From: Thermoleophilia bacterium
GTDB lineage: Bacteria; Actinomycetota; Thermoleophilia; Gaiellales; Gaiellaceae
Length of the DNA: 41,225 nucleotides
Assembly (NCBI GenBank): GCA_009694305.1
Contig: SHVL01000021.1
Location: 1 to 41,225, forward strand
Reading direction: 5' to 3'
The position numbers and the translations under genes were made by a program. Position 1 is the stretch's first letter. Every line of letters begins with the position of its first letter. A model generated the notes under the pieces. It was not told where the DNA came from. It ran no database searches and saw nothing but the letters and a program-made list of their open reading frames with translations. Positions 1 to 1,847 of the stretch are shown piece by piece.

Positions 1-1679
1 GCGAGGCGGCGCGCCGCCTCAGCCCGGTTCACCGCATTCACGATCGCCCGCAATGACGCGGTCAGGATCGAGCCGTGGATTCCGACGCCCCAGAACGCCT
101 CGTCTCCGACATCGGCCTCGACATAGGCGGCCGCTTTCGCGTCCACGCTTGCCGCCATCGCGTGCTCGTGATAGTCACGAATCGAGATAGAAGTGCCGAA
201 TGCCTTCGCGAATGCGTCAACGAGCGCGGCGAGTGGCCCTGATCCCTCGCCCTCGATCACCCGTTCCTCGCCGTCTACCCTGATCCGCACCGCGATCTGA
301 TCGAAGTCTTCTTCGCTCGAATGCGTATAGGCGACGAGCTCGTACGGCGAGACGTGGTCGAGGTAGTGGGTGGTGAACGCCTCCATCAGCTCGCCGCTCG
401 TCAACTCTCCCCCGCGCGCGTCCGTGATCTGCTGCACGCGACGCGCAAAGTCCACCTGAAGGCCACGCGGCAGCTCGAGGTTGTGGTCGGCGGCCATCAG
501 ATAGGCGACACCACCCTTGCCCGACTGGGAGTTCACCCTGATGATCGCCTCGTAGCTCCGCCCCACGTCCTTCGGGTCGATTGACAGGTACGGAACGTCC
601 CACACCTCCGAGCCAGACCGTGCCTGTGCATCCATCCCCTTCTTGATCGCATCCTGGTGGGAGCCGGAGAACGCGGTGTAGACGAGATCACCCGCATACG
701 GGTGACGGGGGTGAACGGGAAGCTCGTTGCACTCCTCGACGATCTCTCTCGCCTCGTCTATCTGCGACAGGTCGAGCCGGGGATCGACTCCCTGTGTCAG
801 CAGGTTCAGCGCGATCGTGACGAGATCGACGTTGCCCGTGCGCTCGCCGTTCCCGAACAGCGTCCCCTCGACACGCTCGGCACCGGCCATCAGCCCGAAC
901 TCGGCGGTCGCGACCGCCGTGCCACGGTCGTTGTGCGGATGCACCGACAGGATCGATGCATCCCGAAACGAGAAGTGACGGCCAAACCACTCCATCCGAT
1001 CGGCGTAGACGTTCGGTGGGAACTGCTCCACGGTCGTCGGCAGGTTGACGATCATCTTCGCAGCGGGTGTCGGCCCCCACTCCGCGGCGACCCGCTCGCA
1101 GATCTCGACGGCGTAGTCGAGCTCTGTGTGATGGAAGCTCTCGGGTGAGTACTGAAAAACGATCTCCGCTTCGGTCTCGTCCGCAAGCCGTCTACACAGA
1201 GCAGTGCCGCTGACCGCGAGAGCGGTGACGCCTTCGCGCTCCATCCGAAATACCACCCGCCGCTGCGTCACCGAGGTCGAGTTGTACAGGTGCATGATCG
1301 CACGGTGGGCACCGTCGATCGCTTCGAAGCTGCGCTCGATCAGCTCCGGCCGCGCCTGGGTCAAAACGGCGACCGTCACGTCCTCGGGGATCAGATCCTG
1401 ATCGATCAGCGTGCGGACGAAGTCGAAGTCCGCCTTCGAGGCCGACGGGAACCCGACCTCGATCTCCTTGATCCCGAGGGTAAGCAGCAGATCGAAGAAC
1501 CGCCGCTTGCGGCCTGCATCCATGGGATTGACGAGCGCCTGGTTCCCGTCTCGGAGATCCGTGGAGCACCAGATCGGGGCGTGTTCGAGCACCCGGTCGG
1601 GCCAGGTGCGATCGGGCAGCGAGACGGTCTCGTACGGGCGGTACTTCTGGAATGGCATCGACACCGGTTGTTCGGACAT
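1..1679 (-). CDS. leuA: 2-isopropylmalate synthase, 3' end outside window
   Basis: First committed step of leucine biosynthesis: condenses acetyl-CoA with 2-oxoisovalerate to 2-isopropylmalate in the cytosol. The minus-strand frame is open from ATG at 1679 to the window edge, about 559 codons. Near the N-terminus it reads STDLRDGNQAL (residues 39-49, the metal-binding Asp region of the HMGL-like TIM barrel), then HPHNDRG (about 247-253, metal-binding His) and GNGERTGNVDL (about 276-286). The part beyond about residue 430 fits the C-terminal LeuA allosteric domain, which is cut by the edge. Actinobacterial LeuA is about 560-640 residues, so little is missing. An AGGAG lies 9 bases before the ATG, inside a small inverted repeat. 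A leucine-rich leader ORF lies upstream at 1759-1833, so expression is probably controlled by leucine. Family assignment is very secure. Confidence 0.96.
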   Translation of the reverse strand, partial: MSEQPVSMPFQKYRPYETVSLPDRTWPDRVLEHAPIWCSTDLRDGNQALVNPMDAGRKRRFFDLLLTLGIKEIEVGFPSASKADFDFVRTLIDQDLIPEDVTVAVLTQARPELIERSFEAIDGAHRAIMHLYNSTSVTQRRVVFRMEREGVTALAVSGTALCRRLADETEAEIVFQYSPESFHHTELDYAVEICERVAAEWGPTPAAKMIVNLPTTVEQFPPNVYADRMEWFGRHFSFRDASILSVHPHNDRGTAVATAEFGLMAGAERVEGTLFGNGERTGNVDLVTIALNLLTQGVDPRLDLSQIDEAREIVEECNELPVHPRHPYAGDLVYTAFSGSHQDAIKKGMDAQARSGSEVWDVPYLSIDPKDVGRSYEAIIRVNSQSGKGGVAYLMAADHNLELPRGLQVDFARRVQQITDARGGELTSGELMEAFTTHYLDHVSPYELVAYTHSSEEDFDQIAVRIRVDGEERVIEGEGSGPLAALVDAFAKAFGTSISIRDYHEHAMAASVDAKAAAYVEADVGDEAFWGVGIHGSILTASLRAIVNAVNRAEAARRL

Positions 1680-1706
1680 TCAGCTCAGCTCCTCTGGAGG
1701 ACAGAC

Positions 1707-1769
1707 TTCCCCCGCTGGATGCGGGTGCACGGGCATTGGTATGTCGTCGCTCGATCCCCTAGCGGGGAA
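1707..1769 (-). promoter_or_regulatory. Leader RNA inverted repeats between leuL and leuA
   Basis: On the minus strand the sequence around the leuL stop (TTCCCCGCT, 1769-1761) is complementary to AGCGGGGGAA (1716-1707), with one bulged G, across a 44-base loop. The downstream arm can instead form a local CCCGC-ATCCA-GCGGG hairpin, so two structures compete for it. Just beyond, TCCTC and GAGGA flank two bases at the leuA Shine-Dalgarno (1691-1702). No U-run follows, so the switch may act on translation or through Rho rather than by intrinsic termination. Pairings were read by eye and energies were not computed. Confidence 0.5.
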
Positions 1770-1833
1770 GGAGGAGGGCAAGCGCAAGCAGGCCAGCGGT
1801 GGCCGAACGATCGCTGCGCGTCTCGCTGAACAT
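1759..1833 (-). CDS. leuL: Leucine-rich leader peptide of leuA (putative attenuator)
   Basis: A 24-codon ORF ending in TAG, 80 bases upstream of the leuA start and on the same strand. Its C-terminal part reads GLLALALLLPR, with six leucine codons (CTG, CTT, CTT, CTC, CTC, CTT) in eight positions just before the stop. The ATG at 1833 lies 8 bases downstream of a TACTCT box (1842-1847), so the RNA would begin at or very near the AUG and the leader would be read leaderless. Leucine-codon runs ahead of leuA are the hallmark of ribosome-mediated attenuation, where stalling on scarce Leu-tRNA changes folding of the downstream RNA. Competing stems are visible downstream. The assignment rests on position, composition and structure, not on homology. 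Confidence 0.72.
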   Translation of the reverse strand: MFSETRSDRSATAGLLALALLLPR

Positions 1834-1841
1834 CGCTCTGA

Positions 1842-1847
1842 AGAGTA
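1842..1847 (-). promoter_or_regulatory. -10 box for leuL-leuA
   Basis: TACTCT on the minus strand, 8 bases before the leuL ATG. It matches TANNNT and the spacing seen before many other genes in this window. Confidence 0.5.

Follow-up and report, generated by a model that had tools for sequence, protein, structure and literature searches.

A leucine-rich leader peptide and a conserved hairpin suggest translational attenuation of leuA in Thermoleophilia

Organization of the leuA leader region

The stretch of DNA analyzed here (the window; 41,225 nt, Thermoleophilia bacterium, SHVL01000021.1) contains on its minus strand a leuA gene that is preceded by a short leader ORF, leuL, and by the features collected in Table 1. 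Inspection of the 559 residues of LeuA that could be read revealed a 2-isopropylmalate synthase of the TIGR00970 type (765 bits, against a cutoff of 697), with its closest named relatives, at 74-92% identity, in Thermoleophilia/Gaiella MAGs. Coordinates confirmed the layout described in the earlier note, in which a 24-codon ORF lies between a TACTCT box, 8 nt before its ATG, and leuA. Leucine occupies six of eight positions (LLALALLL) directly before a terminal Pro-Arg-stop, and only ~80 nt separate the leuL stop from leuA.

Table 1. Features of the leuA leader region, in window coordinates
Feature	Position	Strand	Remarks
-10 box TACTCT	1842..1847	-	8 nt 5' of the leuL ATG (1833-1831); leader promoter
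leuL leader ORF, MFSETRSDRSATAGLLALALLLPR and stop	1759..1833	-	24 codons and TAG; Leu run kept in relatives
P0 5' arm, CUCCUC (two Leu codons)	1771..1776	-	Complement of the leuA Shine-Dalgarno (SD); paired in the MFE structure
P1 hairpin, UCCCC-GCUA-GGGGA	1755..1768	-	Covers the codons for the last Leu, Pro and Arg plus the stop, which is partly in the loop
Motif GACAUACC	1738..1745	-	Between P1 and P2; ACAUA invariant in 20/20 aligned sequences
P2 hairpin, CCCGC-AUCCA-GCGGG	1711..1725	-	Local fold; counterpart with compensatory changes in family f5
Possible P3, GAGCGACGAC (1752-1743) with GUCUGUCCUC (1706-1697)	1697..1752	-	MFE structure here and in close relatives; without covariation support
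Long-range stem, UUCCCCGCU (1769-1761) with AGCGGGGGA (1716-1708)	1708..1769	-	z -3.5 here; not conserved in relatives
leuA SD, GAGGAG (P0 3' arm)	1689..1694	-	9 nt before the leuA ATG
leuA, 2-isopropylmalate synthase	3..1679	-	ATG at 1679; 559 aa read, runs off contig end

Among the 638 short ORFs of the window, leuL alone contained at least six leucines within eight codons near its stop, and no ORF matching this description was present in ten Markov-shuffled windows of ~850 ORFs each. That leuL is a functionless ORF that is rich in leucine by chance, a reading suggested by nothing beyond its small size, can be practically dismissed; it is refuted by the class-wide conservation described below, at distantly related and at unrelated genes, and the shuffle test also speaks against it. 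The folding energy of the whole 192-nt leader was no better than that of shuffled sequences (z 0.20). Folding energy was therefore not used, and the evidence presented here is comparative.

Conservation of the leader in relatives

A LeuA search over 103 genomes of the family to which the window belongs returned 33 with a window-type leuA. About 20 distinct upstream regions in this family carried a Leu-rich leader ending in LPR, LLPQ or LLP, and leuA genes of Thermoleophilia were likewise preceded by Leu-rich leaders, mostly ending in PR. Matches to a model that includes the P1 pairs (R1) were found in 67 of 399 genomes of the class, and those fetched from outside the window's family lay almost all upstream of another LeuA type; the type present in family f5 is distantly related to the LeuA of the window. 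Because this first sample was partly selected on P1 pairing, f5 was re-sampled by LeuA protein search alone. P1 was present at 30 of the 30 loci read in this P1-independent sample, together with the leader and -10 box at all except L144, which is truncated, and L170, in which a Leu-rich leader was not recognized under the rule of the script. Credible matches to a broader model (R2), searched against 396 genomes of the phylum, were confined to the class, with the proviso that the stricter Infernal filters used in this search could miss weak, distant copies. The R2 matches outside the class (G536, G629 and G706) were weak, did not precede Leu genes and were taken as chance.

The position of the promoter was similarly constrained. 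A TANNNT sequence was found 6-11 nt upstream of the leader start in 57 of 59 homologous leaders, compared with 2.0% at arbitrary positions; approximately 2.4 candidate starts were allowed per leader in this test, so the chance level is roughly 5%. A near-fixed distance of this kind is strong, if indirect, evidence for a leaderless start, and the mRNA from which leuL is translated is probably leaderless or nearly so. The leaderless leucine leader peptide proposed in the earlier note gains support from this spacing, from which we infer that transcription begins at the ATG.

Several loci departed from this arrangement. No leader was recognized at six loci (L027 and L041-L045), at which TANNNT lies immediately 5' of the leuA start, so that the leuA mRNA itself looks leaderless there. 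In the sister genus g9 (L037-L040), which belongs to the window's family, the leuA leader (ending in TLLLSLATAG and similar) is followed by a hairpin and a U-run and looks like an ordinary transcription attenuator with an intrinsic terminator. Two divergent leuA leader elements lie ~370 nt apart at L122 (G168:C75:64-149 and 521-606), the minus-strand copy facing the contig end.

A covarying hairpin encloses the leader stop codon

P1 spans the last Leu codon, the Pro codon, the codon that follows and the stop, and was kept in the homologous leaders examined. Covariation links the wobble base of the last Leu codon (U/C) to the post-stop base (A/G), such that, in the set of 60 leuA leaders, CUU CCC endings pair with post-stop GGGGA and CUC CCC endings with GGGGG. 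For the corresponding pair (22-35) in 46 distinct sequences, ilvB leaders included, C-G was observed 25 times, U-A 19 times and an unpaired state twice. Across these 46 sequences, 94% of cells in the P1 helix were paired, a value that fell to at most 72% when the helix was slid. Both wobble states recurred in the f5 re-sample (5 versus 25 loci) and also within genus g53 and within family f10, which makes several changes probable. P1 was retained with a shifted loop in leaders that have lost the last codon (L025, L029 and L031) and with a UAA stop in L018. That the codon following Pro differs among leaders (R, Q, L, A or F) implies that the conserved feature is the hairpin and not the end of the peptide. 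The local stem noted earlier at 1768-1755 is thus real, class-wide and covarying.

P1 is a near-perfect inverted repeat in many relatives, and a palindrome such as CTTCCCCGCTAGGGGAAG could in principle be a DNA operator for a repressor instead of an RNA hairpin; covariation of the arms by itself cannot separate the two, since palindromes covary too. An operator is nevertheless very improbable. P1 is frame-locked with the stop codon at its center, sits within what is presumably transcribed leader, downstream of the run of branched-chain amino acid (BCAA) codons, and tolerates codon loss and loop change, both in the three leaders that lack the last codon and in the ilvB copy of the window's own genome. 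A second covarying hairpin downstream of P1 also argues against an operator.

A conserved motif and a second hairpin follow P1

The 20 sequences in which ACAUA is invariant are from the window's family, with one (L059) from f5. The counterpart of the motif in f5 is GACAC or GACAU followed by P2, which in this family is mostly 5-7 bp long and 16-18 nt from P1 and shows compensatory swaps, for example from GCCCGG/CCGGGC to GCCGGG/CCCGGC. The motif and P2 region differs in sequence in family f10. A wider helix, the possible P3 enclosing the motif and P2, was seen in the sequence of the window and its close relatives. An alternative pairing of an ACCCG motif with the 3' strand of P2, proposed by RNAalifold on alignment A1, was dropped, since several members lack CCCG and the pairing competes with P2. 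One f5 genome, G129, contains both LeuA types with the element before each (L059/L209 and L222); ACAUACCCGU is kept as in the window's family in the copy that resembles the LeuA of the window.

The element recurs at other genes of the pathway

P1-type leaders containing Ile, Val and Leu codons were found upstream of ilvB in several members of the window's family, including the genome of the window itself, whose ilvB leader (G000:C11:16037) reads MLCLAVPAPDSDPRPAVSRGVGIELIDILPR and stop. This leader (L181/L223, G000:C11:16037-16181) ends in GIELIDILPR and carries the hairpin CUCCC-GCGCUA-GGGAG. In a single f7 genome, a P1-bearing leader with Leu and Ile codons lies before leuC. That the element occurs, with matching codons, at mutually unrelated genes within a single pathway is the strongest sign, as judged by sequence comparison, that the element is a portable cis-regulator, and the presence of Leu codons before leuA and of Ile, Val and Leu codons before ilvB argues for codon sensing. 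In genus g7 (L183, L187 and L189), a second small ORF (MSHxM...GAVIA) overlaps the GTG start at ilvB, an overlap that suggests translational coupling. A second perfect copy of CCCCGGTAGGGG in the window's genome (C29) does not precede a BCAA gene and was attributed to chance.

This tracking of the downstream pathway by the codons also bears on the possibility that the GACAU/C motif and P2 are a binding site for a protein or a small molecule controlling access to the SD, with the peptide being secondary or a second input. Such a reading would account for the invariance of ACAUA in 20 sequences without a settled pairing partner; a protein-bound LEU element was favored by the authors of the 2005 study (PMC1262725), in which the leader mutations of Craster (1999) are cited as non-classical. 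The codon match at leuA and ilvB speaks against this reading, which is quite unlikely. A broader proposal, also quite unlikely, is that the core seen in Thermoleophilia (P1, whose loop holds the stop, together with GACAU/C and P2) may constitute a distinct, uncatalogued RNA class that would couple sensing by a leaderless ribosome to a further input from a ligand or protein bound at the invariant motif, and that has been re-used across the leucine/BCAA pathway.

Pairing and accessibility of the leuA Shine-Dalgarno sequence

In the MFE structure of the leader, the CUCCUC of the Leu codons pairs with the GAGGAG of the SD and encloses both P1 and P2. Pairing between Leu run and SD was better with the native than with swapped partners, with permutation p values of 0.027 (f1), below 0.0002 (f5) and 0.064 (f10), uncorrected for relatedness. 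Synonymous-codon shuffles, drawn from leuA coding usage, pointed overall in the same direction, with Stouffer values of -1.1 (f1), -2.8 (f5) and -1.8 (f10); for the sequence of the window alone the test was not significant (z +0.9). The evidence for P0 is thus modest to weak in f1 and clearer in f5.

Modeling indicated that the mean unpaired probability of the window's leuA SD would rise from 0.08 in free RNA to 0.44 when the leader is occupied up to the stop codon. A modeled rise upon ribosome occupancy was obtained for 13 of 20 sequences in f1 and 24 of 25 in f5, with no decrease beyond 0.1. In f10 the SD was no more hidden than with shuffled leaders, which fits a model of SD release poorly. 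A modeled ribosome at the stop codon also freed the SD (0.46), so the off state requires ribosome release.

Two further pairings had been put forward in the earlier note. The long-range stem is present and strong in the window (nine contiguous pairs), where it is mutually exclusive with P1 and P2, but it shrinks to about five pairs in most relatives and to three or four in several. It was rejected as a conserved switch, being largely private to the species of the window with weaker versions in some relatives; the alignment of related leaders that the note had called for upheld the Leu run and the local stem and not this pairing. Modeling points to the run of Leu codons as the more plausible means by which the SD is hidden. 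The small dyad around the SD (1700-1691) comprises three pairs and is too weak to count.

No terminator-like site or U-run was found between leuL and leuA. Neither a T-box nor any other credible match was returned for the leader of the window by a scan against Rfam 15 (E up to 5), or for four relatives (E up to 0.1). Both absences had been claimed at the outset, and the terminator search supports the further claim that control acts on translation and not by intrinsic termination.

Proposed mechanism

Taken together, these observations make it likely that the leader is a leucine-responsive translational attenuator of leuA, translational attenuation being the simplest reading. The leader peptide, the position of the -10 box, P1 and, in one family, P2 are apparent from comparison of the sequences themselves, and sequestration and release of the SD are predicted by modeling. 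Transcription would start at or within ~2 nt of the leuL ATG, and leuL would be translated leaderless. With charged tRNA-Leu plentiful, the ribosome would pass the Leu codons, terminate at the stop in the P1 loop and depart; P1 and P2 would then form, the Leu run would pair with the SD as P0, and leuA translation would be low in the modeled state. When leucine is short, a ribosome stalled on the Leu run would cover the 5' arms of P0 and P1, and the model predicts that the SD is freed and LeuA made. Stalling as the sensor, as the earlier note had it, is supported by the codon evidence, and we infer the stall itself and the direction of control from this arrangement. The conserved GACAU/C motif is left unexplained by the SD-release model. 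Mutations in the leuA leader of Streptomyces coelicolor, with effects inconsistent with classical attenuation according to PMC1262725 (citing Craster 1999), count against the proposal.

Stalling could also set Rho-dependent termination, in that ribosome release would expose to Rho the stretch separating leuL from leuA, which is rich in C and poor in G, with a stalled ribosome or P1 blocking Rho loading. This would be compatible with translational attenuation. It is consistent with the lack of an intrinsic terminator between the two genes and with the conserved C-rich strand after P1, and Rho was proposed in 2005 for similar terminator-less cys leaders (PMC1262725). Control by Rho is unlikely, however, given the short distance from the leuL stop to leuA, the hairpins within that stretch and the SD-occluding pairing in two families.

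How leuA leaders of actinobacteria work has been an unsettled question since the paradoxical mutation results in Streptomyces, and among the Thermoleophilia there are dozens of naturally occurring variants, with compensatory changes, on which Leu-run/SD pairing could be tested directly. If the proposed translational attenuation is correct, control by a leaderless uORF and the SD at two leuA types, ilvB and leuC would form a translational regulon spanning the pathway, in a deep class that has been little studied.

Comparison with known systems

The arrangement had been thought undescribed, which is incorrect. Seliverstov et al. (2005; PMC1262725) described leuA leaders in most Actinobacteria in which a run of Leu codons pairs with the leuA SD, with a conserved pseudoknot inside this base stem. 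The leader of the window shares with this LEU element its position upstream of an actinobacterial leuA, a short ORF with a Leu run, the capacity of that run to pair with the SD and the absence of a described terminator. A candidate for the base stem is the CUCCUC:GAGGAG pairing of the MFE structure, with modest support in f1, clearer support in f5 and no significance for the window's species alone. The Thermoleophilia leader may work like the LEU element, a comparison that covers the Leu run and the modeled SD pairing. By contrast, actinomycete peptides run on past the Leu codons, as in LLLLSCRGEGL of Streptomyces lividans and LLLRCRGGV of Pseudonocardia (L009), whereas the leuL peptide of the window ends in LLLPR; its stop codon falls in the P1 loop, and GACAU/C and P2 come next.

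The leuL1 leader before leuA of S. lividans TK24 was likewise reported to be leaderless and without a Rho-independent terminator (PMC8079986), and none was found between leader and leuA here. It differs in its 15-codon peptide, in its C terminus and in that P1 was not reported; its start is supported by RNA-seq, and that of the window's leuL by promoter spacing. According to PMC9031893 and PMC13236596 (citing Canestrari et al. 2020), leaderless poly-Cys sORFs of mycobacteria regulate downstream translation by attenuation. From these accounts, they share with leuL a leaderless start and an amino-acid run that senses supply and controls downstream translation, but they respond to cysteine, precede cys operons and have been tested experimentally. 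Classical BCAA attenuators, such as that of Mycobacterium tuberculosis ilvB1NC (PMC13236596) and those of the g9 loci, also place before leuA or ilvB a peptide in which the regulated amino acid is abundant but possess a terminator hairpin and U-run, both of which are absent from the window's leader; it also matched no T-box covariance model.

A literature search on Thermoleophilia leader peptides returned none, and no description of the core was found among the papers searched. What is already known in actinobacteria is a Leu-run leader, its pairing with the SD, a leaderless start and the absence of a terminator. What is new, as delineated by comparative analysis, is a class-wide RNA core that is shared across Thermoleophilia and is absent from Rfam.
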